64,000 bases of DNA. Source: an uncultured Gammaproteobacteria bacterium. GTDB lineage: Bacteria; Pseudomonadota; Gammaproteobacteria; Pseudomonadales; Pseudohongiellaceae. The translations under genes and the position numbers were made by a program. Where the stretch lies: assembly GCA_913060695.1 (NCBI GenBank), contig CAJXUA010000001.1, positions 186,001-250,000 on the forward strand, given 5' to 3'. The notes beneath the pieces are model-generated. The model was not told the DNA's origin, searched no databases, and saw nothing but the letters and a program-made list of their open reading frames with translations. This document shows, in pieces, positions 43,165 to 59,624 of this stretch (position 1 is its first letter; every line of letters starts with the position of its first letter).

Positions 43165-43387
43165 AATTGTGCGGTGCTGTAGCAGGAACTCGAAACTCCA
43201 CTTAACTCTTCTAGAAGTTGCCAATGTTGCCGTTGCTATTCTTGGTCATTTTCTGAGGCCGCCATGTATTGTGGTGTGAGAGTTAGTAGAGAATAATGCA
43301 AAGGAACTGACAACAAGTGTCAGGGTTGATAGCGCCCGCCGAGTGAGGGGCGGGTATAAAGCGCTTAACTCTACGGTTGAAATTTTC

Positions 43388-44233
43388 ATGACTCTTGAGC
43401 ATTACCTGCAGCATCGTACTCGCTATGAAACTCTCGCCTTAGTATTAATCCTGAGTCTTGTGCTTGTAGTGAACGTCACGACACTAGGTATAGAGCATAT
43501 GCGTGACGGAACCGGCCAGGGTTGGGCGGAGGCATGGGCGACCGAGTTTACTTCCTTATTGATAACCGGAATCTTATTGCCATTCCTATTCGCTGCCCTT
43601 GTGAGACTCAACCTATCGATAACGAATATGCGCTGGCGTGTAATAGGTTTGCTAGCAATGTTTGTCGTCTTCTCGTTCTTGCATGTTGCGGGGTTTGTAA
43701 TGCTACGTGAGTTGCTGTGGGCCGCAGTAGGAGAGGACTATAGATACGGTCCATTGCTGCTAAACCTCGTATATGAAATGCGCAAAGACTTGCTAGCATT
43801 TTTACTCTATGTTGCTATTTTTTATGGGTATCAATTCATCATCAATCGCCTACAAGGGGAGGCGCGCTTTCTTGATCAAGAAAATGCGCAATCCCAGAGA
43901 ACTACCAGTGTGCAGTTTCTAGTGAAGATGTTGGATAGGGAATATCTAGTAAAAGTCGACGACATTGATTGGATTCAATCCGCCAGCAATTACGTTGTGC
44001 TGCACTGTGGCGAGCGGCATTACCCCATGCGGCAGACCTTAAAGAGTCTCTATGAGCAGCTAGATCCTGTTCAGTTCAAACAGGTGCACCGTACTGCCAT
44101 TGTGAACTTAGAGCGAGTGCGGAGTCTGAATTCTAAAGGAGAGTTGTCACTCGAACTGCTAACAGGAAAGAGCGTGCCGGTTAGCAAGACGCATTTGCCG
44201 GAGTTACGCGCTGCGCTCAACACGTCCCAATAA
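43388..44233 (+). CDS. Membrane-anchored LytTR-family regulator
   Basis: 281 residues from ATG 43388; an upstream in-frame start at 43343 has no ribosome-binding site. Three or four transmembrane segments occupy residues about 18-160; the C-terminal LytTR domain (about 190-275) has VKVDDIDWIQSASNYVVLHCGERHYPMRQTL and FKQVHRTAIVNLERV. Proteins of this layout are membrane-tethered regulators that sense an unknown signal. TTCGTC repeats lie between this gene and the downstream quinoprotein gene, suggesting it may regulate that gene. Confidence 0.87.
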   Translation: MTLEHYLQHRTRYETLALVLILSLVLVVNVTTLGIEHMRDGTGQGWAEAWATEFTSLLITGILLPFLFAALVRLNLSITNMRWRVIGLLAMFVVFSFLHVAGFVMLRELLWAAVGEDYRYGPLLLNLVYEMRKDLLAFLLYVAIFYGYQFIINRLQGEARFLDQENAQSQRTTSVQFLVKMLDREYLVKVDDIDWIQSASNYVVLHCGERHYPMRQTLKSLYEQLDPVQFKQVHRTAIVNLERVRSLNSKGELSLELLTGKSVPVSKTHLPELRAALNTSQ

Positions 44234-44295: not shown

Positions 44296-44371
44296 CCTTG
44301 GCTCCCAATCTGCAGATAGGGCAGCTAGCTATGTTAGTTTGCTTCGGTACTTGCCAGAAGGAAACCACACG

Positions 44372-46303
44372 ATGAATGCAAAACGCACAACCCCCAAATG
44401 TTTGTTATGGCTTGCCATGTGTCTCTACACTTACAGTTTGCAGGCGCAAACGTGGGATGCTTATGGAGGCGACGGTGGTCGCCAGCATACCGAGCTTGAT
44501 CAGATCAATCCAAGTAATGTTGAAGACTTGCAGTTGGCCTGGCGCACGCAGACAGGCGATCTGAATCTGGGTTTCGCCCACAAAGGACACTCATTGCAGA
44601 CTCAGGCAGTTTTCTGGGACGGCATGCTTTTCCTTAGTACTTCTTCTAATTGGGTGTTGGCACTTGATGCAAAAAGCGGAGAGCAATTGTGGCGCTTTGA
44701 TCCGGGCCTTCCCAAGGACATCGGTTATTCGGAAAGTGCTTCTCGTGGGGTTAGCCTGTGGCACGGAGCCGCCGCATTGTGTCCAGACCGAGTATTCATC
44801 GGCACGCTAGTGGGAGAGGTGTACGCGTTGGACGCCCGGACAGGGGAGCGTTGTGCCGATTTTGGAAGCAACGGGCGGGTGGATATGACTGAAGGCGTTG
44901 GCGAGGTGAGCTACGGCGATTATGGTATTACTTCGCCTCCGGCTGTAATGGGTGATCAACTCATTGTGGGTTCTGCTATTGGAGATAACAGGGCGACCCA
45001 ACTGGAGCGTGGCATTGTGCGGGCACTCGATGTGCGTAGCGGAAGCATCAACTGGTTGTGGGATCCGATCCCCACCTCGCCGCTGCAGCCGGCTTACTCC
45101 ACTTGGGAGAATGACAGCGCGCAACGCACCGGTGCCGCCAATGTATGGCCGCCTATTTCGGTGGATACAGAACGAGATCTGGTGTTTGTCTCAACTGGTT
45201 CACCTAGCCCAGACTTTTACGGTGGTGAACGACTAGGAGACAACAACTACGCGAATTCCTTGGTAGCGTTGAATGGAGCAACTGGCGCAATTGAGTGGTC
45301 CCAGCAATTGATCCATCACGACGTATGGGACTATGACATCCCCTCGCAGCCAACCTTGGTAGCGATTGTGAAAGATGGCCAGAGTATCCCTGCTGTCATG
45401 GTGGTGACAAAGACCGGCATGCTCTATGCGTTTGATCGCGTTAGCGGCGAAGCAGTCTATCCCATCATCGAGCGGCCAGTGCCGGCTACAGACGTGCCAG
45501 GTGAAAGACTCTCACCAACTCAGCCAATATCCAGTTTTCCAGCCTTCGCAGATCAGTCCGCATTGGGTGAAGCCGATGCCTTCGGCCTGACGTGGTTCGA
45601 TAAGCGCAGTTGCACCCGCATTCTCAAAGAGTACCGCTCAGAGGGCATCTTTACGCCTCCCAGCCTCAAGGGTTCAATAATGAATCCTAGCTACGTTGGC
45701 GGCGCCAACTGGGGAGGAGTCGCGGTGGACACGGCAAGGCAGATTGCGATCGTTAATGTTAACCAGATTCCGGCCTTAGTGCGCCTCATTCCCCGCGATG
45801 AACTTGACGCTTTGCGCGAAGCAGAAGACTTGAGCGATTGGCAAATTAGCCGTCAGGCCGGCACCCCTTACTACATGGCACGCAAGGTATTTTTGTCCGC
45901 GCTAGGCCTGCCCTGTGTCAATCCACCATGGGGAAAATTAGTAGCGTTGGATCTGGTTAACGAGAAAATACTATGGGAGATGCCATTAGGTACGATTCGG
46001 GATTTGGCGCCAGCCTTGGTGCCGAACTACGCATGGGGCGTACCGAATATGGGTGGGCCATTGACCACCAAGTCCGGCTTGATCGTGCTAGGAGCTGCTG
46101 CGGAGCATGTGTTGCGCATTTTCGACACCAACTCTGGCGAGGTGCTCTGGCAATATGATCTGCCAACATCGGCAAATTCTACACCCATGAGCTACGAGGC
46201 TGAGGGGGATCAGTATATTGTCGTAGCGGTAGGTGGCCACGATGGTCTGGGGATGCCGCGAGGAGACTATATCTATGCGTTCAAACTGGGTTCTCAGCAG
46301 TAG
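44372..46303 (+). CDS. PQQ-dependent dehydrogenase, glucose-dehydrogenase-like (soluble form)
   Basis: 643 residues from ATG 44372 (AAGGA nine bases upstream). A signal peptide (ends YSLQAQT) makes it periplasmic. Eight-bladed quinoprotein propeller with GGRQHTELDQINPSNVEDLQ, the tryptophan-docking repeats (AWRTQTGDLN, GEQLWRFD, GEVYALDARTGE) and the catalytic region IHHDVWDYDIPSQPTL, with D320 as the likely catalytic Asp. The HHD-x-WD-x-D-x-P-x-QPTL pattern is that of membrane glucose dehydrogenase Gcd, but the transmembrane anchor of Gcd is missing. Substrate unknown; sugars or small alcohols are plausible. It must import PQQ or have its genes elsewhere, since none are in the window. Confidence 0.9.
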   Translation: MNAKRTTPKCLLWLAMCLYTYSLQAQTWDAYGGDGGRQHTELDQINPSNVEDLQLAWRTQTGDLNLGFAHKGHSLQTQAVFWDGMLFLSTSSNWVLALDAKSGEQLWRFDPGLPKDIGYSESASRGVSLWHGAAALCPDRVFIGTLVGEVYALDARTGERCADFGSNGRVDMTEGVGEVSYGDYGITSPPAVMGDQLIVGSAIGDNRATQLERGIVRALDVRSGSINWLWDPIPTSPLQPAYSTWENDSAQRTGAANVWPPISVDTERDLVFVSTGSPSPDFYGGERLGDNNYANSLVALNGATGAIEWSQQLIHHDVWDYDIPSQPTLVAIVKDGQSIPAVMVVTKTGMLYAFDRVSGEAVYPIIERPVPATDVPGERLSPTQPISSFPAFADQSALGEADAFGLTWFDKRSCTRILKEYRSEGIFTPPSLKGSIMNPSYVGGANWGGVAVDTARQIAIVNVNQIPALVRLIPRDELDALREAEDLSDWQISRQAGTPYYMARKVFLSALGLPCVNPPWGKLVALDLVNEKILWEMPLGTIRDLAPALVPNYAWGVPNMGGPLTTKSGLIVLGAAAEHVLRIFDTNSGEVLWQYDLPTSANSTPMSYEAEGDQYIVVAVGGHDGLGMPRGDYIYAFKLGSQQ

Positions 46304-46482: not shown

Positions 46483-47031
46483 CTAACGTGGGACGAGTTC
46501 AAACACCCAGCTATTGCCGTCTTCAATGTCTGCTCTCGCTGTGGCAATGTCCTGGGCCGACACTGGCGTAGGCACGCCGCTGTATTTAGCCAGAAGCTTA
46601 GCAGCGACACCATCGAGCACATCCCCTTGCTTAACACGCACTAGCTGTCTTGGGTAGCGCACATTATTCACACGCAATACGCCTTGGTCGTTACCCGCGT
46701 CTGCGTCGAAAGCCCATTGTTTCCAGATTTTGCCGAGGAAGGACTTCATATAGCCAGAGACTACGTAGATCTTGCCCTCGCTCTCCAAGATGAAGATGCG
46801 GCGGGTGGACATGGGGTCGTTGAGTTGTAGCTCGATGGTGAAGATATCGTCGGTGAAGCTCCAGTCTGGCTCCGGCCCCATATGCAATTCTCCGGACACC
46901 ATCTCGCCGCCGGGGAACACCACCGTTGCGCCGTCTGCACCACTGCGCTGTATGCGCAATGTGCCGATCGCAACTGCACTAATCAGCACAACGAAGCCCA
47001 CTATCTGCAAAACAATCTTGATAATTTTCAC
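46483..47031 (-). CDS. Membrane-anchored protein, possibly PNPOx-like fold
   Basis: 182 residues from GTG 47031, with GGAGG seven bases upstream. An N-terminal transmembrane helix (IVLQIVGFVVLISAVAIGTL) is followed by a periplasmic domain with GKIYVVSGYMKSFLGKIWKQ and RVNNVRYPRQLVRV, which resembles the split-barrel fold of deazaflavin nitroreductase or PNPOx proteins. No flavin-binding residues can be confirmed. It is convergent with the quinoprotein gene, with a small frameshifted ORF between. Confidence 0.72.
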   Translation of the reverse strand: MKIIKIVLQIVGFVVLISAVAIGTLRIQRSGADGATVVFPGGEMVSGELHMGPEPDWSFTDDIFTIELQLNDPMSTRRIFILESEGKIYVVSGYMKSFLGKIWKQWAFDADAGNDQGVLRVNNVRYPRQLVRVKQGDVLDGVAAKLLAKYSGVPTPVSAQDIATARADIEDGNSWVFELVPR

Positions 47032-47250: not shown

Positions 47251-49809
47251 ATGATGCGAATTGCAAGCTGCTTGTATCGCTGTCTTTCCAATACCTTTGG
47301 TATCCTCTCCCTATTTCCGTCAACTTATAGAATAAAGAGTCTCTCTAGCCCTGCGCTGCTCGTCTTCACGCTGTCACAAGGGCTCGTTCTGCCACCTGCG
47401 CACGCCGCAGCAGCCGTTGCGGAGGACTTCTCTGCAGTGCAGATGCAAGAGGTTGTGAACACATACTGCCTTGCTTGCCACAATGATGTTTTGAGCTCCT
47501 CCGGGCTTTCCCTGCAGCGTGTGGATTTTAACAGTCCCGCTAATCATGCCGAAATTCTGGAAATGATCGTCAAAAAGCTGCGTGCTCATATGATGCCGCC
47601 GGCAGGCATGCCTCGCCCAGCATTCGAAACCTATGAAGTCATGACCACTTGGTTAGAAACCGAGTTAGACAAAGCGTGGGTAGCGAATCCAAATCCTGGG
47701 CGCATAAGCCCCATTCAGCGCATGAATCGTTACGAATACAATAATGCGGTAAACGATCTGCTTGGGCTCGATATGGATGTCACGAGTCTATTACCCGGCG
47801 ACCCCACAGCCGATGGCGGTTTCGATAATATGGCCTCGGCATTGCCGTTTTCGACGGCACATATGGAACGCTACATGTCGGTGGCGCGGCAATTAACACG
47901 ATTGGCCGTAGGCATGCCGCCGCTGAGCCCCAGTGTTAGCACTTACGAGATTCCACTGTATATGGCACAGGACTGGCGCCAGAGCGAGAACGTTCCGTTC
48001 GCAAGCCGTGGTGGGCTAGGGGTGTCGCATTATTTCCCAGTAGATGGCGACTATGTCATCAAAGTCAGCCTCGAGCGTAACTATCAGGATTACCTGAAGG
48101 GCATGGGGTGGCCGCAACAGCTAGAGATTCGTTTGGATGGCGTGTTATTGCAACGCTTTACTATTGGGGGTGAGGCACCAGGAACGCCGGCACCGTTGAG
48201 CTTTAGCGGCACTGGGGAGCTAGGGAGCAGCGACTGGGAAACCTATATGCTCGTCACAGCAGAGCAGGGGCTAGAGGTGCGGGTTCCAGTGAGCGCGGGT
48301 CCCGGAGTCGTGTCTGTCACCTATGTTCGGCAGATGCTCGAACCCGAGAGTATTCCACAACCGGCTCAGCAAGGCCGTCTCTACGCCAATGACGAGGCGT
48401 ACATGGCCTATCAGAAGGTGCATTCAATAGAGATTGGCGGACCATTCGGAGAGGTAAAGCCTGCTCGCAATACTGCGAGCCGTGACGCGATATTCAGCTG
48501 CCACCCGGAGCAAGGCAGTCCCGAGAACGCCTGTGCGACGACGATTCTTAGCGATATGGCACGCAAGGCCTATCGGCGGCCAGTGACAGCGGACGATCTG
48601 GCACTGCTCACTAGCTTCTTCAATGACGGGCGCGAGCGTGGAGGAAGTTTTGACGCCGGCATACAGTTCGCGATCGAATTCTTACTAAGTGATCCCGATT
48701 TCTTAGTGCGCTTCCATGAAGACCCTCAAGGCCTAGGGCCACGCCAAACCTTCGCGTTAACCGACAATGAACTGGCCTCGCGCTTGGCCTTCTTCCTGTG
48801 GAGTAGCGGTCCTGATGACACCCTGTTGCATCTTGCAGAGGAAGGCCGCCTGACGGAGCCAGAGGTCCTGAGGGCGCAAGTACGCCGTCTCCTCGAAGAC
48901 CCACGTGGTGTAGAGACTCTAGTCGATGATTTCGCAGCACAATGGTTGAACCTGCGGCGGATTGAGGAAGTGCAGATCAATACGGTGGTATTCCCGGAAT
49001 ACGATCTGGCCTTAATGGAAGCCTTCGAACAGGAAACACAATTGTTTGTCGCGGACACCTTGCGCAGCGATGCCAGCGTGATGGAGTTGCTGGGGGCACG
49101 GTATACCTATTTGAACGAGCGTCTAGCAAGACATTACGCAGTGCCCGACGTCTACGGTAGCCGCTTCCGCAAGGTGGCCTTGCCCAATGCCAATCAACGT
49201 GGCGGCTTGTTGGCACACGGCGCGCTGCTAACGGTCACGTCCTACCCGGGTCGCACATCGCCGGTGTTGCGAGGTAAATGGCTGCTCGACAATATCCTCG
49301 GCACGCCGCCACCGCCACCGCCTGCGAATGTACCGATTCTTCCGGATGCAGAGGACGGACAGCTAGCGACTTCGATTCGCGAACGCCTAGCCCAGCATCG
49401 CATAGATCCCATTTGTTCATCGTGCCATAACGTAATCGATCCGCTGGGTTTCGCGTTGGAGAATTTTGACGTCATTGGGGCTTGGCGAGAGTACGATGAA
49501 GGGGGTAACGCGGTAGATCCTAACGGTACCTATCCGGGAGGCGTGGAGTTCACGGGTTTTGCGGATCTGCGTGAGTGGATGCTGGAGCGCCCCGAGCGTT
49601 TCGCCCACACCTTGACCGAGAAACTGATGACCTATGCGCTGGGCCGCAGAGTTGAGTATTACGATCAACCCGCGATTCGGCAGATTGTGCGCACGGCGGC
49701 AGCAGAGAACTACAGCTGGTCGTCACTCATTATAGGCATAGTGGAGAGCCCGCCATTCCTAATGAGTATTACCGCGGACTCTGCCGAGCTAGCGAGTGGA
49801 ACACAGTAA
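47251..49809 (+). CDS. Exported DUF1592-family cytochrome c-like protein
   Basis: 852 residues from ATG 47251. A long N-terminus with a hydrophobic signal (LVFTLSQGLVLPPAHA) exports it. Domain order: an N-terminal heme c site CLACH at 73-77, DUF1587 (RMNRYEYNNAVNDLLGLD), a DUF1595-like central region, DUF1592 (DNELASRLAFFLWSSGPDD), DUF1588 (GRTSPVLRGKWLLDNILGTPPPPPP, with a second heme-type CSSCH at 722-726) and DUF1585 at the C-terminus (ALGRRVEYYDQPAIRQIV). These proteins are widespread with DUF1552 partners in Planctomycetes, Myxococci and marine gammaproteobacteria, and no reaction is known. The 40-residue ProAlaPro linker is absent here. Confidence 0.88.
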   Translation: MMRIASCLYRCLSNTFGILSLFPSTYRIKSLSSPALLVFTLSQGLVLPPAHAAAAVAEDFSAVQMQEVVNTYCLACHNDVLSSSGLSLQRVDFNSPANHAEILEMIVKKLRAHMMPPAGMPRPAFETYEVMTTWLETELDKAWVANPNPGRISPIQRMNRYEYNNAVNDLLGLDMDVTSLLPGDPTADGGFDNMASALPFSTAHMERYMSVARQLTRLAVGMPPLSPSVSTYEIPLYMAQDWRQSENVPFASRGGLGVSHYFPVDGDYVIKVSLERNYQDYLKGMGWPQQLEIRLDGVLLQRFTIGGEAPGTPAPLSFSGTGELGSSDWETYMLVTAEQGLEVRVPVSAGPGVVSVTYVRQMLEPESIPQPAQQGRLYANDEAYMAYQKVHSIEIGGPFGEVKPARNTASRDAIFSCHPEQGSPENACATTILSDMARKAYRRPVTADDLALLTSFFNDGRERGGSFDAGIQFAIEFLLSDPDFLVRFHEDPQGLGPRQTFALTDNELASRLAFFLWSSGPDDTLLHLAEEGRLTEPEVLRAQVRRLLEDPRGVETLVDDFAAQWLNLRRIEEVQINTVVFPEYDLALMEAFEQETQLFVADTLRSDASVMELLGARYTYLNERLARHYAVPDVYGSRFRKVALPNANQRGGLLAHGALLTVTSYPGRTSPVLRGKWLLDNILGTPPPPPPANVPILPDAEDGQLATSIRERLAQHRIDPICSSCHNVIDPLGFALENFDVIGAWREYDEGGNAVDPNGTYPGGVEFTGFADLREWMLERPERFAHTLTEKLMTYALGRRVEYYDQPAIRQIVRTAAAENYSWSSLIIGIVESPPFLMSITADSAELASGTQ

Positions 49810-49868
49810 GCATGAAGTCGTATTGTCCAAAATATTGAGCAAAGTGTTTGGCCATGGAGAACAGTTCA

Positions 49869-51224
49869 ATGAACACTAAAGTACGGACGGTCAACATCGT
49901 GACCGGCAAGTCTATCTCTCGGCGAGCGGTCCTGCGCGGCTTGGGCGCCACGCTAGCACTGCCCTTGCTTGATGCCATGACCCCGGCGTTCGCGCAGCCT
50001 AGGTCGGTTATCGCGCCCGTGCATCGTTTTCAGACCTTCTACGTACCTAACGGCATGGCCATGGAATACTGGACACCGCCCACGGTGGGCAGAAACTTCG
50101 AGTTGACGCCCATTCTCAAACCGCTTGCTCAGTTCAGGCAGCAAATGCTGGTGTTGTCGGGGTTGAAGGCCAATTGGAATATTGCCCACGCAGGTGCCGG
50201 CGGATCATTTCTGACCGGTGTTACGGAAGGCGGCAAGAACGAAGTCGATATTCTGGCGGATGTGTCAGTCGACCAAATGCTTGCCAGAGAGTTAGGCAAG
50301 CAGACACAGCTATCATCCCTAGAGTTATCCATGGATGCGCCAGCCCATGCGGGTGCATGCACGGTCAATCTTAGCTGTGTGTATACCCATACGCTGTCAT
50401 GGCGCGGGCAGCGAGAGCCTCTGCCCATGGAGCATAACCCGCGGGCCGTGTTCGAACGCCTCTTTGGCGATAGTGGCAGTACTGGCCAGGCGGCAAGGGA
50501 AGCACGTTTCAGTGAGCAAACCAGCATCCTGGATGCGGTATTAGGCAAACTCAATGGGCTGCAGAGCAAACTAGGCGCGCAGGACCGTCATCTCGTCGAC
50601 GGCTATACGGAATCGATACGCAGTATTGAGCAGCGCATTCAAAAAGCGGAAGAACAGAGCGACATGGAGCTACCCGAACTGATGCAACCAGCCGGCGTGC
50701 CTCCGGTGTTCGAAGATCATTTGGCCTTGATGCAAGATCTACAAGTGCTAGCGCTACAAACAGACCTCACTCGTGTGATTACCTTCATGATGAGCAAAGA
50801 GCAGAGTGCGCGGCCTTACCCACAGATTGGCGTGCCCGACGCGCATCACCCCTTGTCCCATCACAACAATAACCCCGAACTGATCGAGCGGATGTCGAGA
50901 ATCAACACTTACCACACGCAGTTATTTGCGAACTACCTCAGCAAGCTCGCCGCCACCCCAGATGGCGACGGCTCATTACTCGATCATATGACGATTCTTT
51001 ACGGCAGCGGTATTTCCAACAGCACCAATCACTCCGGAGACAATCTGCCAATCCTTCTTCTCGGAGGAGGAAACGGCTGGATGAAGGGTGGACAGCATTT
51101 ACACTTCCCCAATGAGCCGACCATGGCGGATCTTTTGTTAACGCTCATGGATCAGTACCAATTACCTTTAGATCGTATTGGTGGCAGTTCTGGTCGCCTG
51201 TCTCTTGACGGAGCGTCCGCGTAG
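49869..51224 (+). CDS. DUF1552 protein with twin-arginine-like signal
   Basis: 451 residues from ATG 49869, chosen over upstream in-frame starts because GGAG precedes it at nine bases. The N-terminus has a twin-arginine-like signal: SRRAVLRGLGATLALPLLD, consistent with export of a folded, perhaps metal-loaded, protein. DUF1552 motifs are clear: RFQTFYVPNGMAMEYWTP, HAGAGGSFLTG, and the acidic and histidine positions GVPDAHHPLSHHNN. It is always found next to DUF1592 proteins; the fold resembles the alkaline-phosphatase/sulfatase superfamily, but catalysis is unknown. It follows the DUF1592 gene by 59 bases in the same unit. Confidence 0.88.
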   Translation: MNTKVRTVNIVTGKSISRRAVLRGLGATLALPLLDAMTPAFAQPRSVIAPVHRFQTFYVPNGMAMEYWTPPTVGRNFELTPILKPLAQFRQQMLVLSGLKANWNIAHAGAGGSFLTGVTEGGKNEVDILADVSVDQMLARELGKQTQLSSLELSMDAPAHAGACTVNLSCVYTHTLSWRGQREPLPMEHNPRAVFERLFGDSGSTGQAAREARFSEQTSILDAVLGKLNGLQSKLGAQDRHLVDGYTESIRSIEQRIQKAEEQSDMELPELMQPAGVPPVFEDHLALMQDLQVLALQTDLTRVITFMMSKEQSARPYPQIGVPDAHHPLSHHNNNPELIERMSRINTYHTQLFANYLSKLAATPDGDGSLLDHMTILYGSGISNSTNHSGDNLPILLLGGGNGWMKGGQHLHFPNEPTMADLLLTLMDQYQLPLDRIGGSSGRLSLDGASA

Positions 51225-51237
51225 CGACGGTGAACCC

Positions 51238-52638
51238 ATGTTGAAACGATGGCACTTTTTAGTTCTGATTGGCACTGCAACCCTTTGTTCAGGGGCGGTA
51301 GCGCAGCGCGGTATGCCGGAACTAGTTGGAGCCGCAAAAGAAGGCGACTGGTCCCATCTAGCGCAATTATTAGGCGAGAGTGCCCCTGTAAACGCGGTGT
51401 ACGGGGACGGTAGTACCGCACTGCATTGGGCGAGCTATCACAATAATGTAGAAGCTGTAGAGCAATTACTTAACGCTGGGGCGAATGTGAACGCCAGCAC
51501 CGATCTTGGCGTCACGCCACTGTGGTTGGCGGCAGAGAACGCCAACGCGGCTTTGGTCGAGACATTGCTGGCTGCAGGCGCTGACGCCAACGTGGCACTG
51601 CATAGTGGCGAAACAATCCTCATGACGGCTACGCTAGCTGGAAATGCGGCGGTAGTACGACAGTTGCTGGAGGCGGGTGCGCAACCCAATCACAGGGTTG
51701 CTCGCGGCCAGAGTGCGTTGATGTGGGCGGCGGGCCGAGGCTATGGCGATGTTGTGGCCGCCCTCATAGACCATGGCGCCGATGTCCATGCCAGTTCCGA
51801 ATCCCGAACCCATTACGTAAAGACCGAAAAGCCCCAAGACAGCCCACCGGACTACAAGGTCTGGGTGGAAGATGGTGGCAACACACCCTTGATGTTCGCG
51901 GCCAGGTCAGGTGACTTGCACTCTGTGCAATCGCTGATAAACGCCGGCAGTGATGTGAATGAGGTTTCCGCGTTCGGCACAAGCCCAGCCATTATGGCGA
52001 CACACTCTGGCAATGTCGCTACCTTGTCTGCACTACTGGAGGCGGGTGCAAATCCAAATTCTGACGTCAGTGGCCACACAGCCTTGCACGTGGCCGTCCT
52101 GCGCGGCAATAACGATGCCGTCAAGGCGCTCCTCGATCATGGCGCCACAGTTAACGCGAAAGTCGAACGCGCATCTCCGACGCGGCGTCAGTCCGAGGAT
52201 TACCATTTCCACGAGACCTTTGTCGGCGCTACTCCGCTATGGCTTGCCGCTCGTTTCCAAGAGCCAGACATTATGGCCACCTTGTTGGCACACGGGGCAG
52301 ATCCTAAGGTAGTGAACAATGTTCGCTACCCCGCGTTGACGCGCGATGGGCAGCCCACAGTGGTCAGTGAAGGCGATATCTCCATTTTGATGGCAGCACT
52401 TGGCATGGGTAACCGTCGTCTGGCTGTTAGTTGGGGGACCGAAGAGCGTCGGGCTGGTCGCATCGACAAAGACATCGAGGCGCTGATCTACAGCACTGCT
52501 AAGCTCGCGATTGCGGCTGGTGCAGAGCTAGATCTGACTGACGCGTCGCAACAAAGTGCGCTGAGTACTGCAAAGAGTCGGCGCTATGAATCCGTGCAGC
52601 GTTTGTTGAGAGAAGCAGGCGCAGCAGAGGTGCCGTAA
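51238..52638 (+). CDS. Exported ankyrin-repeat protein
   Basis: 466 residues from ATG 51238. A signal peptide (ends SGAVAQRG) sends it to the periplasm, which is unusual for ankyrin proteins. It has at least nine repeats, from DGSTALHWASYHNNVEAVEQ to GHTALHVAVLRGNNDAVKA, broken near residue 200 by a charged insertion (THYVKTEKPQDSPPDYKVW) and again around residue 320 (ASPTRRQSEDYHFHETF). Probably a binding scaffold for the DUF1552/DUF1592 proteins; no enzyme motif is seen. It lies 13 bases after the DUF1552 stop, so it is cotranscribed. Confidence 0.87.
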   Translation: MLKRWHFLVLIGTATLCSGAVAQRGMPELVGAAKEGDWSHLAQLLGESAPVNAVYGDGSTALHWASYHNNVEAVEQLLNAGANVNASTDLGVTPLWLAAENANAALVETLLAAGADANVALHSGETILMTATLAGNAAVVRQLLEAGAQPNHRVARGQSALMWAAGRGYGDVVAALIDHGADVHASSESRTHYVKTEKPQDSPPDYKVWVEDGGNTPLMFAARSGDLHSVQSLINAGSDVNEVSAFGTSPAIMATHSGNVATLSALLEAGANPNSDVSGHTALHVAVLRGNNDAVKALLDHGATVNAKVERASPTRRQSEDYHFHETFVGATPLWLAARFQEPDIMATLLAHGADPKVVNNVRYPALTRDGQPTVVSEGDISILMAALGMGNRRLAVSWGTEERRAGRIDKDIEALIYSTAKLAIAAGAELDLTDASQQSALSTAKSRRYESVQRLLREAGAAEVP

Positions 52639-52751
52639 GACATGGGGTGAGTAGCACTATCCCGATTGTGATTGCTTTTTGATCGCCAGCGCTTACTCAC
52701 AAGGTAAGCATGCTGGTGGCTAATAACAAGAATAAACTAGAGGAGTACAAG

Positions 52752-54227
52752 ATGAACATCCGTCATCTGCTGATTGCAGTAGTAACCGTTCCGTTAATGT
52801 ACTCGGCGTCTGTGATTGCGCAGTCGCACGATGCCAGTATCGCGAACCATCAACCGCATTATTATGACGCGCAGGAATTTGGGATTGACCCCAAGAACGT
52901 GACCTTTCATAAAGACATTCAGCCGATTCTGCAAAAGAGCTGCCAGAATTGTCATCGCGCTGGTGGCGGTGGTCCCATGTCCCTCATTTCCTACGATGAG
53001 GTTAAACCCTGGGCTCCAGTGATTCGTTATCGAACGGCCATTAGAGATCGCCTTGGCGCTATGCCTCCTTTCTTCGCCGAGAAAGATATCGGCATTATTC
53101 AATTTAAGAATGATTATTCTCTCACCGACTTGGATCTCGCCTTAATTCAGGCATGGGTGGACAACGAGTCGGTGGAGGGCAACCCTGCCGATGCGCCGCC
53201 TGCGCTAGTGTTCAATGAATCCAATGATTGGACTATTGGCACGCCGGATCTTGTGCTGCGTTCCGCAGATTTAACTCGCCCTGCGGTGGGCTCAGATTGG
53301 TGGGGCGATGTTGGCCTAATACCCACTGGGCTAACTGAAGATCGCTACGTTGCGGCAATTCAGGTGCGCGAAGTGAACGACATCCCAGTGGATGCGAGCA
53401 ATACCACTGTTGGTGGGCGTTATATTTTCCATCACCTGACCTATACCAGCGGCGTGTTGAGTGAAGAGGGAACAGCTATCCTAGCGGATGACGTGGTCAG
53501 CTGGCCCATCCATGAAGTAGGGCGTAATCCTGATATTTTTCCAGAGAAGGCAGGCCGCTTGCTACATGCCAACTCTGCACTGCATCTTGAAGCAGCACAC
53601 CTGCATTCCAATGGTCGAGAAACTACTGGTTATCTGGAATTCGGCATTGTGTTCTTCCCGCGTGACTATAAGCCACAATATAGTCGACGTGGCCCCAGAA
53701 CAGGCAATGGTATCGACATAGACATCGTGCCCAACAAAGCCAACCAAGAAGTGCACAACTACGTGGTGTTGCAAGAGCACACTAAGATAATTGCGTTCGA
53801 GCCTCACCTTCATGCGCCTGGCGTAAGAATGTGTATGGAGGCCATCTGGGGGCATAATCAGTTCACACTGAACTGTGTGGGCTATGACCACAATTGGGTA
53901 AAACAGTACGTGTACGAAGACGACTATGCGCCTCTGCTGCCAAAGGGCACCATATTGCATACCATTGGGTATCTTGACACGACTGCTGCCAACCCGAATC
54001 TCGCCGATCCGCGCAACTGGGCAGGTGGTGGCCGACGCTCCGTGTCGAATATGTTTATCGATCTGGGTTACTCGGTATCGCTAACCGAAGAGCAGTTTCA
54101 GGCTGAGATGGCAACCCGTCGTGAACGCTTGAAAGACAAGAATGATTACGACATTGCCTGCCCTTTATGCTGGGCTCCCGTCGTTACAGCTCCGACTAAT
54201 ACGGTTGCACAGGAGGCGAACCCATAA
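52752..54227 (+). CDS. Exported cytochrome c / copper monooxygenase-like protein
   Basis: 491 residues from ATG 52752 (GAGGAG upstream). A signal peptide ends near SVIAQSH. The N-terminal half has one heme c site, CQNCH at 64-68, and a GAMPPFFA stretch typical of its fold. The C-terminal half resembles copper type II ascorbate-dependent monooxygenases (PHM/DBM): HH at 227-228 in YIFHHLTY, H283-x-H285 in HLEAAHLHSNG, and H352-x-H354 in EPHLHAPGVRM. These could form the CuH and CuM sites of that family. I infer oxygen-dependent hydroxylation of a small substrate, with the heme feeding electrons in place of ascorbate. The stop overlaps the next start (TAATG). Confidence 0.83.
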   Translation: MNIRHLLIAVVTVPLMYSASVIAQSHDASIANHQPHYYDAQEFGIDPKNVTFHKDIQPILQKSCQNCHRAGGGGPMSLISYDEVKPWAPVIRYRTAIRDRLGAMPPFFAEKDIGIIQFKNDYSLTDLDLALIQAWVDNESVEGNPADAPPALVFNESNDWTIGTPDLVLRSADLTRPAVGSDWWGDVGLIPTGLTEDRYVAAIQVREVNDIPVDASNTTVGGRYIFHHLTYTSGVLSEEGTAILADDVVSWPIHEVGRNPDIFPEKAGRLLHANSALHLEAAHLHSNGRETTGYLEFGIVFFPRDYKPQYSRRGPRTGNGIDIDIVPNKANQEVHNYVVLQEHTKIIAFEPHLHAPGVRMCMEAIWGHNQFTLNCVGYDHNWVKQYVYEDDYAPLLPKGTILHTIGYLDTTAANPNLADPRNWAGGGRRSVSNMFIDLGYSVSLTEEQFQAEMATRRERLKDKNDYDIACPLCWAPVVTAPTNTVAQEANP

Positions 54228-55213
54228 TGGTTGTTAGAAGTAATGTAAAAAAAGTAACTGCGTTGTCCTTGCTGTTGATGTTCGTTGCGAGCCTTTTGTT
54301 CTCGACGATGGCTCAGGCACAAGTGGTGTTCATGCAGCTGCGGGATCAGAACATCTCGCCGGCCTTCGAAGGCTGGTGGGAGAATGAGGATGGATCCTAC
54401 AAACTGTTCTTCGGTTATATGAATGCCAATTGGGCACAGGAGCTCGATATTCCGATAGGCCCTGATAATTACTTCGCGTTGTCGGGGCCTGGGGAACAAG
54501 ATGATCTGAGTAAAGACTTCTACAGTTTCGCCAACGCCGACTATGGGCAACCGACGCATTTTTATCCGCGTCGCAATCCTTTCCTGTTCACTGTTGACGT
54601 GCCTGCCGACTTTGGCAAGCAAGAGCTGGTGTGGACCTTAACTAGCAAAGGCAAAGTGCACCGTGCATATGCCACCTTGAAGTACGATTACATGATCGAT
54701 CCGCAGGTAATCTCTACCGAGGTTGGTGGCGACTATGGCAGTCTCGCAGATTCATTGCGTACGAATATTTCGCCGGAGTTAAAAGTGGAAGGGGAGACTC
54801 GCCGCACAGTGCGCGCAGGGCAAACACTTTCCTTAGCGGCGGTTGCCAACGATCCGGATAATTTGCCAGCTCACAGGGGCAACCGTTTGCCGAGTACACC
54901 AGATCAACTGTATAGGCCGCCATCCTCTATCGTGGCCATTAGCGGTCCCGGTCTGCGGTTTTCGTGGTCAGTGTATAGAGGGCCTGCGCAGAAAGTGAGC
55001 TTTATGCCCGAGCAGTTCAAGACTTGGACAGATACCCGAGTCTACAGCAACTCGCCATGGTCTCCGCCCTATCAGATACCCGAGATACCTGCGGATAATC
55101 GCTGGGAAACCGAGGTAACGTTCGCTGAACCGGGGGAGTATGTCTTGCGTGGCATCGCCAGTGATGGTTCTATGTTCACGTATGAGAATATCTACATCAC
55201 TGTAGTGGAGTAG
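54227..55213 (+). CDS. Exported protein coupled to the heme/copper monooxygenase
   Basis: 328 residues. Its ATG overlaps the previous stop, and AGGAGG lies 12 bases before it, so it is translationally coupled. A signal peptide ends in MAQAQVV. Two beta-rich domains: an N-terminal domain with SPAFEGWWENEDGSYKLFF and a C-terminal Ig/PKD-like domain from GPGLRFSWSVYRG to ENIYITVVE. No catalytic motif. I recognise it as a frequent companion of such cytochrome/copper proteins, without a known function, perhaps a substrate-binding or assembly partner. No cysteines in the mature protein. Confidence 0.78.
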   Translation: MVVRSNVKKVTALSLLLMFVASLLFSTMAQAQVVFMQLRDQNISPAFEGWWENEDGSYKLFFGYMNANWAQELDIPIGPDNYFALSGPGEQDDLSKDFYSFANADYGQPTHFYPRRNPFLFTVDVPADFGKQELVWTLTSKGKVHRAYATLKYDYMIDPQVISTEVGGDYGSLADSLRTNISPELKVEGETRRTVRAGQTLSLAAVANDPDNLPAHRGNRLPSTPDQLYRPPSSIVAISGPGLRFSWSVYRGPAQKVSFMPEQFKTWTDTRVYSNSPWSPPYQIPEIPADNRWETEVTFAEPGEYVLRGIASDGSMFTYENIYITVVE

Positions 55214-55220
55214 AGGAAAG

Positions 55221-55257
55221 TAAGCAGTTGCCACCTATTGCGTGTGGCAACTGCTTA
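55221..55257. terminator. Hairpin between convergent genes
   Basis: Perfect 14-bp arms (TAAGCAGTTGCCAC / GTGGCAACTGCTTA) with a 9-base loop, between the 54227 gene and the convergent cupin gene. No U tract, but the stem is stable. Confidence 0.6.
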
Positions 55258-55287
55258 GTCCTGCGGTTGAATCGCTTTGGCTTAACG

Positions 55288-55743
55288 CTACTGCACTACA
55301 GGAGTGGCGCGATACTCCGCATCAGTGACAGGCTCAAGCCAATTCACCTCGCCCTCATAAATTGTTAGTTGTAAGGCATCTTCGTCCGGGTGGGCTCCGT
55401 GCCAGTGCTCCACACCCTCTGGCGTCCAGAAGGGTTTGCCTGGGCCGTATTGGCGCACCACGCCGCCACGGTCTTGCGCCAAGCCTCTGCCCTCTTCAAT
55501 CATGAGCAGTTGACCCCACGAGTGCGAATGCCAGTTGGATCTTACGCCCGCTGGAAATAACAAGCGCGCTGTCTGCACTGCCTCGCTATCATGCACTTGT
55601 GGGTTGCCTCCCATGAAGCGGCTCTGTTGCTGTGCAAAAGTGTTGCTTGAGTCTGACCCCACGAGGATCCAGCCAAAGGCTATTGTCGACGCAATGCCAA
55701 TGAATATTTCTTTCTTCGTTGCTTTGTTTTTATTGCTAATCAT
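55288..55743 (-). CDS. Exported cupin-domain protein
   Basis: 151 residues from ATG 55743 (AAGGAAGG upstream); an in-frame start at 55797 adds a charged stretch. The N-terminal hydrophobic segment (IASTIAFGWILVGSDSSN) is a signal anchor or Sec signal ending at FAQQQ. The cupin motif has metal ligands in WHSHSWGQLLMIEEG and GVEHWHGAHPDEDALQL. Such cupins may bind a metal and act on small molecules; it lies between the plus-strand oxidation genes but on the opposite strand. Confidence 0.82.
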   Translation of the reverse strand: MISNKNKATKKEIFIGIASTIAFGWILVGSDSSNTFAQQQSRFMGGNPQVHDSEAVQTARLLFPAGVRSNWHSHSWGQLLMIEEGRGLAQDRGGVVRQYGPGKPFWTPEGVEHWHGAHPDEDALQLTIYEGEVNWLEPVTDAEYRATPVVQ

Positions 55744-55942
55744 TGAGGGTGCCTTCCTTTGTGATTTTAATTTTTTAGAATCTCCACCAATCCTCACCAG
55801 TGTAGCAAGAGTCTTAACTAGAATTCATCCTCTGGCCATTCAGCATTACTAAATTTCTTTAATTTTTGATTCTGCAAAATTTAGACAGCTCCCCTCATAT
55901 TCTGCTACAGTCTTGGCAAATAATAAGAACGCAGAATCAATA

Positions 55943-56725
55943 ATGTTGCGACTTCATCCGCTCTGCTTAAGATTACTCTGTTTTATTTTCTCTCTCTTCG
56001 CGCCTATCGTGGTGTCCGCGCAGAACGCCAATCCGTTCATCGGTGATATTGGCTCTATTCGCGTGGGCGGCGCATTATTTGGTGCGCGCTGTGCCACCTG
56101 CCATGGTGCCGACGCGAAAGGGATTGTAGCGCCAGACTTGACCCAGCTGTGGGCCGCAGGCGTCGAAGACTATCGCGTGTTCCAAATTGTGAAAGAAGGT
56201 GTTCCGGGCAGCATCATGCCGTCGAGTCCTGCGCCGGACAATGAGCTGTGGGCGATAGTGGCCTACCTGCGTAGTATCAGTACCGTCGCGGTAGAGATAG
56301 ACCCCAATGCGGACCTAGCGCGCGGGGAGAGCCTCTTTAAATCCGAGTGCGCCACTTGTCACCGCGTGAATGGACAAGGCGGCAGTATGGGGCCTGACTT
56401 AAGCCGCATCGCAGCCATTCGCTCGCAAGATTTGCTCACTAGTGCCATGCGCGATCCAAGTGCGTTGATAGGCTCGCGCTATAAAACCGTAGCCTTAGTC
56501 TTAAATGATGGCACCGAAGTTCGCGGCACTATAAAAAGCGAGGACGCCTTTTCTATTCAGATCATGAACACGGAGCAACAACTGCGTGCTTACCGCCTAT
56601 CCCAGGTGCGCGAGCTCGTTCGAGAAACGCAATCGCTTATGCCGGTATATGACGCTGGCGCTTTAAGTGAAGAAGATCTGCACAATATTTTGGGATACTT
56701 GGTGAATGTCGCGACAGCCAACTAA
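55943..56725 (+). CDS. Exported diheme cytochrome c with TIGR02603-like heme domain
   Basis: 260 residues from ATG 55943. A signal peptide ends near VVSAQN. Two heme c sites: CATCH at 50-54 with the axial Met near SIMPSS, and CATCH at 136-140. The second half, with NGQGGSMGPDLSRIAAIRS, DPSALIGSRYKTVAL and DGTEVRGTIKSEDAF, matches the TIGR02603 putative heme-binding domain known from Planctomycetes. It probably carries electrons from the quinoprotein encoded next, 17 bases downstream. The ribosome-binding site is weak (no clear AGGA). Confidence 0.87.
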   Translation: MLRLHPLCLRLLCFIFSLFAPIVVSAQNANPFIGDIGSIRVGGALFGARCATCHGADAKGIVAPDLTQLWAAGVEDYRVFQIVKEGVPGSIMPSSPAPDNELWAIVAYLRSISTVAVEIDPNADLARGESLFKSECATCHRVNGQGGSMGPDLSRIAAIRSQDLLTSAMRDPSALIGSRYKTVALVLNDGTEVRGTIKSEDAFSIQIMNTEQQLRAYRLSQVRELVRETQSLMPVYDAGALSEEDLHNILGYLVNVATAN

Positions 56726-56741
56726 AGGGAAGCGCTTATCT

Positions 56742-58379
56742 ATGTCAGCTGTATTTCTACGCAATCTAGTAGTGGCATCAACACTCCTCGTATTGCACTC
56801 CAATATTGGGCATGCACAGAACGCCAGCAGTGGCGTTAGTTATCCGGACATCTTCGCGGGATTAACTAAGCCGGATCAGTGGCCCACGTTCTCCGGCGAT
56901 TACACTGGCCAGCGTCACAGCCCCCTCACGCAGATAACGCCAGAAAACGTAGAGAACCTGGTGTCTACTTGGACCTTTCAGACCGGCACGACCACGCGTG
57001 GACGCGGCTTCGAAACCACGCCCTTGCTGATAGACGGTAACCTCTATGTCACTGGTTCCAATAACTATGCGTGGGCTATCGATGCTAAAACTGGGCGATC
57101 TTTTTGGGAGTACCGTCGCGACTTGCCTGACAATCTTACCTATGGTGCCACAGTGCCGGTCAACCGTGGTTTCGGAATGCTCGGTGAGAGTCTGTTCATG
57201 GTTACGCTCGACGCTCATTTACTGTCCTTGGATCGGCGCACAGGCGAGGTGCTATGGGATATCGAACTGGCCGATTACCGTATTGGTTATTCTGCAACCT
57301 TGGCCCCGCTTGTTATCGATGGCAAAGTGATTGTCGGCATCTCCGGCGGCGAGTATGCGACCCGAGGCTTTATCGACGCCTATAACCCCGAAACAGGTGA
57401 GCGGCTATGGCGATTCAATACGGTGCCGAACCCGGGTGAGCCCGGCAGTGAGACTTGGCCCGATGACCCGGATGTGTTGGCCCGTGGCGGCGGCGGTACT
57501 TGGATGACGGGTAGTTATGATCCAGAGTTGGACTTGCTGTACTGGGGCACCGGTAATCCGAACCCGGACTACTATGGAGATGAGAGGCCTGGCGATAACC
57601 TCTACACTAACTCTATTGTGGCGCTGGATGCCCAAAGCGGCGAGCTGCGTTGGCATTATCAATTTACCCCACACGATCTCAACGACTGGGATTCGAATCA
57701 TGTGCCAGTGCTGGCCGATATCGACTGGCAAGGTTCGCCACGTAAAGTGGTGATGGTGGCGAATCGCAATGGTTTCTTCTACGTGCTCGATAGAGTGAGC
57801 GGCGAGTTCTTGCTTGGGAAGCCTTTTACAGGCACTAGCTGGGCCCGAGAGATTGGCAGTGATGGCCGCCCTATTGTGCTAAACGACGGGAGTAAGGGTT
57901 GTGTTCCAGACCCGTGGGGCGGCACTAACTTCTTCCCGCCTTCTTTCGATCCGAAACTGGAATGGCTATTTCTTAACGTGAGGGAGACCTGTGCAACCTA
58001 TGTTCCTCAGGCGCCAGAGCTGATTTCAGGGCAGGCCTCTTTCGGTGGAATAGTCTCTGTCGATCGGAGCGAGGAGTACGGAGCGCTGCGAGCATTGAAC
58101 GTGAAAACCGGAGAGGCACAATGGGAGTTTCGCTACCCTTCCGCGACCTTTGGTGGGGTCATGAGCACAGCCTCTGGCATAGTCTTTGCGGGCGACCACG
58201 AAGGCAACTTCATGGCTTTCAGGTCTGCGACTGGTGAAAACCTCTGGCATTACCAGACTGGGTCGAGAATCTGGGGAGCCGCAGCGATGACCTATATGCT
58301 CGAAGGTAGGCAATATGTGTTGATTGCATCTGGCACTACGCTATTAGCCTTTGCACTACATGCGAGCGCGCAGCTCTGA
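56742..58379 (+). CDS. Exported quinoprotein (PQQ) alcohol dehydrogenase
   Basis: 545 residues from ATG 56742 (AAGGGA eleven bases upstream); an earlier ATG overlaps the cytochrome gene. A signal peptide ends near NIGHAQN. The eight-bladed quinoprotein repeats are clear: YTGQRHSPLTQITPENVENL, WAIDAKTGRSFWEYR, VNRGFGMLG and GELRWHYQFTPHDLNDWDS. The catalytic region has D315-W-D317. The extra Asp two residues after the catalytic one is the signature used to recognise lanthanide-binding quinoprotein alcohol dehydrogenases (XoxF/ExaF type). No heme c domain, so electrons should go to the adjacent diheme cytochrome. It lies 6 bases from the convergent 58386 gene. Confidence 0.88.
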   Translation: MSAVFLRNLVVASTLLVLHSNIGHAQNASSGVSYPDIFAGLTKPDQWPTFSGDYTGQRHSPLTQITPENVENLVSTWTFQTGTTTRGRGFETTPLLIDGNLYVTGSNNYAWAIDAKTGRSFWEYRRDLPDNLTYGATVPVNRGFGMLGESLFMVTLDAHLLSLDRRTGEVLWDIELADYRIGYSATLAPLVIDGKVIVGISGGEYATRGFIDAYNPETGERLWRFNTVPNPGEPGSETWPDDPDVLARGGGGTWMTGSYDPELDLLYWGTGNPNPDYYGDERPGDNLYTNSIVALDAQSGELRWHYQFTPHDLNDWDSNHVPVLADIDWQGSPRKVVMVANRNGFFYVLDRVSGEFLLGKPFTGTSWAREIGSDGRPIVLNDGSKGCVPDPWGGTNFFPPSFDPKLEWLFLNVRETCATYVPQAPELISGQASFGGIVSVDRSEEYGALRALNVKTGEAQWEFRYPSATFGGVMSTASGIVFAGDHEGNFMAFRSATGENLWHYQTGSRIWGAAAMTYMLEGRQYVLIASGTTLLAFALHASAQL

Positions 58380-58385
58380 GTGCCT

Positions 58386-59510
58386 TCAACGAATAATCAT
58401 GGGGCGGCCAGCCGCAGGAGGAGCCTGTAGTGATTCTCTGGACTGGAACCGCTCCGATTGTTCCATCTCGGACATGGCCGGACCACCCTGATTGAAGATG
58501 CCTCCACGCAGGGCAAAGATGGTATAGCGCATCTGGTCTTCTAGTTCGTTTTCCTTGTCTATAAATTGCGCGGTGATGGCTTCGATGCTAGCCATTCTAT
58601 CGATCGCATCTGGGTGGGCCAGAATATCCCCAATGACAATGCGGAGCATGGCGATATTATCCACTATCATCGCCGCAGCAGGATGGCGCGAGAATACAGT
58701 GGGTGCGATTGCGGGCATGGTAGGGATGTCAGTAGGTAAGTTCACAAAGCTGCCGTGAGCGCGCTGAATCTTATCGGCGAAGCGTGTTAGCAGACTTTCC
58801 AGCGCTTGATGGCGTAACTCTGCATCTGTGTCAGTGAGCAAGAGGGTTTCCAGTGTAGCCAAATACAGCCATTGCGACGACCATAGCAAACCGCTGAACT
58901 GTGGAAAGCCCACACGAAAAGCATAGGCAAACTGATGCTTCGATAATAAATTGGACGATTTCGGGTGTGCTGCAACGGAGTGCTCGTGTTCACTTAAGTA
59001 GTCTTGCACGGCCTTGTCGACCTCTGCACTTTTATCTGCGAACGCTTCGTTAGTGTAAATCGCTAATAGCTTTTCATTGAACTGGCGTCCCTTTTCTAGG
59101 ACTGCAATTGTTAGCGGGGGAAGAATGCCGCTATCGCCCAATGCTGTGTTGCTCGTCTGAGGTGCTCGTTCGCGATACAGCGTGGCCACAAGCCCCGGTG
59201 TTGCTCTGCTCTCGAATACCCGGAAAGGGCCGAGCATTGCCAAATGATTACCCGGGGAGTGATAGTGGGAGGCTGGTGCCTGAGCCAGTTCGAGTAAAGA
59301 CTCGCGAAGAAGACCCTTTCCCGAGATCGAATCGGGCGAAGAATTAGTAAAGAGCACTTCTTCAAAGATCGTGCTTTGTACGATCTCGAAAGCGTCTAGA
59401 TAGTGCTTAACTCCCACCAGCTCGCTCGGTAGCGCGGTATCCAATGGTTGCGCATTTGAGGTGATCGAAACTACTACCAAGGCCCACAAGTGGACCCGTA
59501 GAATTCGCAT
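58386..59510 (-). CDS. Exported protein of unknown function
   Basis: 374 residues from ATG 59510; a GTG 30 bases earlier is possible, and neither has a good ribosome-binding site. A signal peptide ends near SITSNAQP. The mature protein is mainly helical, with regularly spaced acidic and aromatic residues, and no motif for any enzyme. The run DIPTMPAIAPTVFSRHPAAA is proline-rich. Cysteines are absent from the mature part. It is on the opposite strand to the quinoprotein gene and may belong to the 58-62 kb set. Confidence 0.7.
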   Translation of the reverse strand: MRILRVHLWALVVVSITSNAQPLDTALPSELVGVKHYLDAFEIVQSTIFEEVLFTNSSPDSISGKGLLRESLLELAQAPASHYHSPGNHLAMLGPFRVFESRATPGLVATLYRERAPQTSNTALGDSGILPPLTIAVLEKGRQFNEKLLAIYTNEAFADKSAEVDKAVQDYLSEHEHSVAAHPKSSNLLSKHQFAYAFRVGFPQFSGLLWSSQWLYLATLETLLLTDTDAELRHQALESLLTRFADKIQRAHGSFVNLPTDIPTMPAIAPTVFSRHPAAAMIVDNIAMLRIVIGDILAHPDAIDRMASIEAITAQFIDKENELEDQMRYTIFALRGGIFNQGGPAMSEMEQSERFQSRESLQAPPAAGRPMIIR

Positions 59511-59624
59511 CAGTGTCTGTTTAGTAGTGACAAGCCCCACGGTACTTATCTCGTTAGAGTGATATTCGTTTGTGCCTCAAGATAACGGAAGTCGATACAT
59601 CAAAGCCACCCGTGATTTGCTAAA

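Follow-up and report, generated by a model that had tools for sequence, protein, structure and literature searches.

Two modules of exported redox proteins, one with a dedicated ankyrin-repeat protein and one with a candidate cytochrome-fed copper hydroxylase, adjoin in a gammaproteobacterial genome

We analyzed a window of 64,000 nucleotides (positions 186,001 to 250,000 of contig CAJXUA010000001.1, assembly GCA_913060695.1) from an uncultured gammaproteobacterium of the Pseudohongiellaceae, and within it a block of genes for redox and associated proteins at 47251-58379. In this lineage the block combines two modules that are conserved separately: module D, comprising genes for a DUF1592 protein, a DUF1552 protein and an ankyrin-repeat protein, and module M, comprising a cupin and a divergent dihaem cytochrome, a quinoprotein, a monooxygenase and a 328-aa partner protein. 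In two phyla, the ankyrin-repeat protein is a dedicated third part of the DUF1592/DUF1552 unit. For the block as a whole we propose, with a probability of about 0.4, a cytochrome-fed periplasmic copper hydroxylase that is coupled to a quinoprotein dehydrogenase and assisted by the DUF1592/DUF1552/ankyrin unit.

The sequence-only reading of the window had described DUF1592 and DUF1552 as a frequent pair and placed the ankyrin with them, and both statements hold. In a sample of 42 DUF1552 genes (L002, L003 and L083-L121), DUF1592 adjoins DUF1552 in 40 by the locus maps (not in L111 or L117), or in 36 by a strict test for a position directly upstream. An ankyrin gene lies within 5 kb in 39 of the 42, directly downstream on the same strand in 31 and in other arrangements in eight; three (L090, L111 and L117) have none within that distance. 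Among 20 acidobacterial loci, DUF1592 occurs in 19 (not L135) and the ankyrin in 17 (not L131, L135 or L138). The acidobacterial loci and the 39 family loci L083-L121 were hand-picked, mostly from high-scoring matches rather than at random, and one locus is common to both samples (L126 and L003 are identical). As a control, no ankyrin was found in 30 loci chosen around genes other than DUF1552, of which the window's own genome supplied 12 and genome group g5 18 (L022-L033, L035-L052).

Genome-wide counts follow the same pattern. Across eight hand-picked genomes, ankyrin copies number one each in the window's genome (G000), G012 and G084, two in G071 and zero in G005, G013, G041 and G107, and the respective DUF1552 matches number one, one, one, three, zero, zero, two and zero. 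The two counts thus agree except in G071, with one extra DUF1552 match, and in G041, whose two extra matches are weak members of the family (best E-value 6.4e-43). The frequencies of 39/42 and 17/20, the copy counts and the empty control together exclude a chance ankyrin neighbor. The cassette is also amplified in some lineages: at least 14 DUF1552 matches occur in 5 of 6 g2 genomes and 8 of 11 g8 genomes, and one acidobacterial genome of 4.7 Mb has 39, some of them partial. At L107:6398-18571, a g2 genome has two DUF1592/DUF1552/ankyrin cassettes in facing orientation, beyond which another DUF1592-like open reading frame (ORF) begins.

Outside the window, the two modules are mostly found apart. 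In a set of 144 genomes that includes the window's own, the complete block recurs in one of the 143 others (G012). A partner orthologue is carried by 28 g5 genomes; the module M locus was read in 18 of them and placed by coordinates only in the other 10. Of the 18 loci read, 17 are intact and one (L052) is clipped by a contig end. In all 17 intact loci of this sister genus, the cupin, dihaem cytochrome, quinoprotein, monooxygenase and partner lie within about 8 kb, in the order cupin/dihaem cytochrome-quinoprotein-monooxygenase-partner in 16 and monooxygenase-partner-dihaem cytochrome-quinoprotein in L051. Module M without the cupin is also present in an acidobacterium (L004). Orthologues of the window's D cassette stand at loci of their own, eight of which were read (L087, L096, L098, L102, L118, L120 and L121 in g5; L119 in g6). 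Modules at separate loci rule out a single conserved operon. The earlier expectation that relatives would conserve the gene order of one system fails, since the whole block was found in 1/143 other genomes, and the proposal of a strongest candidate for an undescribed single system is not supported as stated; what survives includes the set of exported redox proteins and a weaker link between D and M.

We consider the evidence for a functional link to be moderate. Using thresholds of more than 430 bits for the partner and more than 730 bits for DUF1552, orthologues of the partner occur in 30 and of DUF1552 in 23 of the 144 genomes; 21 have both, nine M alone and two D alone (G018 and G088). Groups g1 and g5 together account for 21 genomes with both, nine with M only, one with D only and 19 with neither. 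By tests that ignore shared ancestry, co-occurrence is significant in g5 (19 both, 9 M only, 1 D only, 7 neither; Fisher p=0.012) and in g1 (2 both, none with either alone, 12 neither; p=0.011). Within the limits that contig breaks set on such a count, D and M orthologues share one contig in three g5 genomes, at 21 kb (G066), 28 kb (G071) and 43 kb (G064). In the acidobacterium G144 (L003/L126), a D cassette and a monooxygenase-partner pair lie side by side in divergent orientation, and its DUF1552 and its monooxygenase each branch as sister to the window/g5 clade in the respective tree (support 100/97 in one tree; 99 by SH-aLRT in a quick tree). Our estimate of the link rests on this co-occurrence, spacing and adjacency, weighed against the fact that the modules are usually apart.

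A serious alternative, although one we hold to be less probable than our proposal, is that the modules are unrelated, became neighbors by chance in two species of the genus and take part in no common pathway. The single recurrence of the full block and the separate D and M loci of g5 speak for chance, as does the lack of any general pull of monooxygenases toward DUF1552 cassettes: a monooxygenase or partner relative is present in only two (L090 and L101) of the 39 family loci L083-L121. However, chance fits poorly with the adjoining sister genes of both modules in the acidobacterium, with the g1 orthologues of both being found in the same two of 14 genomes and neither in the other 12, and with the co-occurrence and 21-43 kb spacing in g5. 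Among the acidobacterial DUF1552 loci, a monooxygenase relative occurs in 4/20 (L126, L132, L135 and L142) and a partner fragment in L133, frequencies for which no null was computed. The distribution also differs between groups: genomes of g2, g3 and g8 have DUF1552 and no partner match, and those of g1 and g4 carry the partner and no more than two DUF1552 matches.

The monooxygenase protein of module M joins a cytochrome c domain to a copper monooxygenase domain. This fusion had been noted in the sequence-only reading and it is real. Pfam gives a sub-cut-off cytochrome match at the N-terminus. Over 29 aligned sequences, C78, C81 and H82 of the CxxCH motif, H241 and H368 are invariant, and H242, H297, H366 and M448 are kept in at least 90%. 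We take the His-His, His, His-x-His and Met positions to be the CuH (HH, H) and CuM (HxH, M) ligands of PHM. A structure model (pLDDT 80.6) finds 4zel, 3mll and 1sdw as its top Foldseek matches (E-value below 1e-7, probability 1.00), human dopamine beta-hydroxylase (DBH) scoring 6e-9; TM-scores by query for the PHM/DBH matches are 0.30-0.40, and plant-virus capsids are also listed from an E-value of 3e-6, with lower TM-scores. In predicted fold and aligned ligands the protein resembles the PHM/DBH enzymes, at these modest TM-scores. Seven of the 29 members match Cu2_monoox_C (PF03712), a model of type II copper monooxygenases that has an N-terminal partner model. Searches of the PDB with sequence profiles of the monooxygenase, DUF1552, DUF1592 and the partner gave at most weak matches in the cytochrome region or spurious ones. 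Because the cytochrome c domain is fused to the monooxygenase, we suggest that the enzyme receives electrons from cytochromes rather than from ascorbate.

The monooxygenase query matches 18 stretches of the window's genome, some of which are pieces of a single gene, and the partner family has seven matches there (two weak) and up to 16 in other genomes. Many of the haem/copper paralogues in this genome (L028, L029, L030, L031 and others) are about 570-650 aa long with an extra N-terminal region; AhpC-TSA matches seven of the 29 aligned members, and one member has EF hands. Two partner copies (L022:7795-8766 and L024:8176-9147) have an adjacent AraC-type regulator and no monooxygenase in the stretch read, which for L022 stops at a contig end soon after the partner copy. 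A secreted-looking family of 384 aa lies beside haem/copper monooxygenases of the same genome, at 58386-59540 (minus strand) in the window and at L026:6161-7321, L026:10202-11386 and L027:11911-13041; the two of these four copies that were scanned have no Pfam match. In one g5 locus (L035:10854-15346), genes for a TAXI-type TRAP transporter (an NMT1_3 protein and DctM), which hints that a small organic acid is taken up, and for an NHL-repeat protein come after module M; L036 and L037 have ORFs of similar size at the same place, seen without a domain scan. We also considered a PAM-like system, in which a copper hydroxylase would work with an NHL-propeller lyase. The L035 protein does match PAL (E-value 9.8e-18), but other NHL propellers outscore PAL for it and no NHL protein was seen beside the window's cluster.

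The earlier label of a dehydrogenase that uses pyrroloquinoline quinone (PQQ) has to be applied to the quinoprotein with caution. The protein passes the cut-off of the methanol/ethanol dehydrogenase family TIGR03075 (498.9 bits against 480.05), and in an alignment to the solved homologue 6zcv the Glu, Asn, Asp, Arg and Trp positions, which in methanol dehydrogenase are catalytic or bind PQQ, are kept in 21/21 sequences. However, PqqE was not found in the window's genome (best 53.2 bits of 381.35) and PqqC had no match in G000 or G012. PqqC does occur in 4/36 g5 genomes (G045, G060, G074 and G082) and in 5/14 g1 genomes (G001, G005, G010, G011 and G013). Since neither PqqC nor PqqE was found, the quinoprotein may either work without PQQ or depend on an imported supply. 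The first of these options underlies a second alternative, which we regard as unlikely: module M would work without PQQ, the propeller being a relative of the empty quinoproteins with a binding or scaffolding role, and respiratory cytochromes would drive the monooxygenase directly. In its favor, the closest NCBIfam model by E-value is acido-empty-quinoprotein A (TIGR04528), although the score of 524.9 bits is below the cut-off of 650, and the columns aligned with the adjacent-cysteine pair of 6zcv are G and A in 21/21, beside the missing PqqC and PqqE. It has to contend with the conserved positions, with the TIGR03075 score and with the fact that PQQ import occurs in other bacteria. Matches resembling the quinoprotein number 18 to 111 per genome in six acidobacterial genomes (G144-G149).

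In module D, the DUF1592 protein has the domain order DUF1587-1595-1592-1588-1585, all over Pfam cut-offs, and both of its CxxCH sites are present in 24/24 aligned sequences. The DUF1552 protein scores 312.6 bits against PF07586 (cut-off 30). Its invariant residues over 36 sequences include R25, R26, H114, D142, H334, H338, H339, D379 and H395; in the HxxSHH motif, S337 is near-invariant beside the three histidines. A structure model (pLDDT 76.6) gives choline sulfatase, YejM-type proteins and phosphonate monoester hydrolase as the best fold matches, with E-values of 2e-4 to 5e-4, and from this model the protein may well have an alkaline-phosphatase-superfamily fold. A third alternative starts from these matches, and we think it quite unlikely: module D would be a hydrolase system in which a sulfatase-like DUF1552 acts on a polymer or ester in carbohydrate use and the cytochrome protein serves as a structural part or a sensor. 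It gains from PMC5615132, which reports that PSCyt genes often lie near sulfatase genes and that some carry carbohydrate-binding modules. The haem sites kept in 24/24 DUF1592 sequences argue otherwise, and no sulfatase nucleophile motif appears among the invariant or near-invariant DUF1552 columns listed. That motif is C/S-x-P-x-R.

Hypothetically, the proteins of the block would act together as follows. A periplasmic monooxygenase of the PHM/DBH type would draw electrons from its own cytochrome c domain and hydroxylate a substrate with O2, working with the 328-aa partner. The quinoprotein would next oxidize the resulting alcohol and pass electrons to the dihaem cytochrome, which could return them to the monooxygenase or feed the respiratory chain. 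DUF1552 would be a metal protein exported folded by the twin-arginine translocation (Tat) route, with the dihaem DUF1592 protein as its electron partner and the ankyrin as a dedicated scaffold that holds the two together. In this lineage, module D may act on the substrate of module M or at an adjacent step. Delivery of electrons to cbb3 oxidases, as suggested before, is unsupported: the COX1-family and FixG genes of the window, presumably of the cbb3 type, are no closer than about 31 kb upstream, and we see no connection between them and the block.

Several observations weigh against this proposal, beginning with the neglect of shared ancestry in the co-occurrence tests. DUF1592, DUF1552 and the ankyrin are found in none of the 18 g5 module M loci that were read, and in the 19 g5 genomes that carry both, the orthologues sit on different contigs in 15 and share a contig in four, of which G054 has them 995 kb apart and the other three are those at 21-43 kb. 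A second, closely related D cassette in G144 (L124) has no monooxygenase within the 17 kb read. The window's monooxygenase reaches no copper-monooxygenase Pfam model, and at least one paralogue (L029:5023) has lost some of the ligands. PqqC is found in 2/30 genomes that carry the M orthologue. The fold match of DUF1552 is weak, with a best E-value of 2.3e-4 (next 3.9e-4) and TM-scores of at most 0.42 by query and 0.47 by target among the matches listed, and a sequence profile of the protein had no match in the PDB.

The genes named in the sequence-only reading all sit where it had placed them, by ORF check and Pfam (Table 1), in a genome of 3.73 Mb in 47 contigs that is 99% complete. Its claim that every product is exported is borne out in general, as a crude hydropathy measure (no signal-peptide predictor was used) shows an export-compatible hydrophobic stretch at the N-terminus of all eight products of the block, but DUF1552 is marginal by this measure and its export call rests on its twin-arginine motif. 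The CxxCH motifs are at residues 73 and 722 of the DUF1592 protein, 78 of the monooxygenase, and 60 and 146 of the dihaem cytochrome. The overlap that had been described is real at two places: the monooxygenase stop and the partner ATG share one base (TAATG; AGGAGG lies upstream), and the dihaem cytochrome and quinoprotein genes overlap. An overlap of the DUF1552 and ankyrin genes is a start-codon artefact, as the ankyrin probably starts with the ATG at 51238, 13 bases past the DUF1552 stop, and the same-strand run is interrupted by the cupin and a 700-base gap ahead of the dihaem cytochrome. Scans for promoters (8 against 8.9 expected by chance, standard deviation 2.8) and terminators (9 against 10.6, standard deviation 3.0) were at chance level.

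Table 1. Genes of the block and of its immediate upstream flank, in window coordinates.
Product	Coordinates	Strand	Basis and remarks
Small protein, 182 aa, strongly hydrophobic N-terminus; possible accessory	46483..47031	-	Divergent upstream of module D; no Pfam family
DUF1592-type protein (DUF1587/1595/1592/1588/1585; PSCyt/PSD group), module D	47251..49809	+	Pfam; two CxxCH; export-type N-terminus
DUF1552 (HXXSHH) protein, module D; possible sulfatase/alkaline-phosphatase fold	49848..51224	+	Pfam; Tat signal; predicted structure
Ankyrin-repeat protein, module D, export-type N-terminus	51238..52638 (ORF listed from 51178)	+	Pfam; constant DUF1552 companion
Cytochrome c domain fused to predicted PHM/DBH-type copper monooxygenase domain, module M	52710..54227	+	Ligand alignment; predicted structure
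Partner protein, 328 aa, module M, export-type N-terminus	54227..55213	+	No Pfam family; start overlaps monooxygenase stop
Cupin, module M, export-type N-terminus; divergent from dihaem cytochrome	55288..55797	-	Pfam; position conserved in g5 loci
Dihaem cytochrome c, module M	55913..56725	+	Two Pfam cytochrome c domains; two CxxCH
Quinoprotein, PQQ-dehydrogenase-like propeller, module M	56706..58379	+	Pfam PQQ propeller; overlaps dihaem cytochrome gene

Counterparts of the small protein upstream of module D adjoin DUF1592 in L002, where they are divergent, and a paralogous DUF1592 cassette in L088. Just upstream, at 44339-46303 on the plus strand, is a second PQQ-type dehydrogenase, which resembles the glucose/quinate family and scores below the TIGR03074 cut-off; a LytTR-like gene (labelled without a domain scan) precedes it at 43343-44233.

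DUF1592 and DUF1552 have been frequent families without a known function, and their tie to an ankyrin in two phyla turns them into a testable three-part complex. The up to 39 DUF1552 matches in a 4.7-Mb genome suggest that the cassette matters to the organisms that carry it. If our proposal is true, the cytochrome feed built into a PHM-type hydroxylase would be the way in which bacteria run such an enzyme without ascorbate, and a large and little-studied repertoire of periplasmic oxidations would be exposed. A bolder version, which we think improbable as a whole, is that module D represents a new class of periplasmic redox machine, made of a dihaem DUF1592 cytochrome, a Tat-exported DUF1552 metal protein with a sulfatase-like fold and an ankyrin scaffold; it would be spread over two phyla, with dozens of copies in some genomes serving different substrates, and the copy in the window would share a pathway with the cytochrome-fed PHM-type hydroxylase and the quinoprotein.

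The new points relative to known systems are the dedicated ankyrin and the putative cytochrome-fed copper hydroxylase. In searches of an open-access library, we found no paper that joins DUF1592 with DUF1552 or reports an ankyrin association, and nothing on this cassette or on bacterial haem/copper fusions among the titles and abstract openings listed. The closest relatives of module D are the planctomycete-type PSCyt/PSD proteins, which according to PMC5615132 are numerous and mostly adjoin one of two unknown gene families. Module D shares with them the domain proteins, the high copy number and neighboring families without known function. One of those two families is presumably DUF1552, although neither that name nor "ankyrin" occurs in the main text of PMC5615132. 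Unlike the planctomycete-type systems, the cassettes described here have an exported ankyrin as a near-constant third member and are found in Gammaproteobacteria and Acidobacteria.

The quinoprotein resembles the PQQ methanol/ethanol dehydrogenases of TIGR03075 in score, in its catalytic positions and in having a cytochrome c gene alongside, and differs from them in lacking the adjacent-cysteine pair and in a genome where PqqC and PqqE were not found. It is also like acido-empty-quinoprotein A, by best E-value and by the acidobacterial name of that model, with a score below the cut-off. The monooxygenase is like PHM and dopamine beta-hydroxylase in its predicted fold and in its His-His...His...His-x-His...Met pattern. 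In contrast to these enzymes, it has an N-terminal cytochrome c fusion and a 328-aa partner, is encoded in a cluster with a quinoprotein and a cytochrome, would reside in the bacterial periplasm and has many paralogues in the window's genome.

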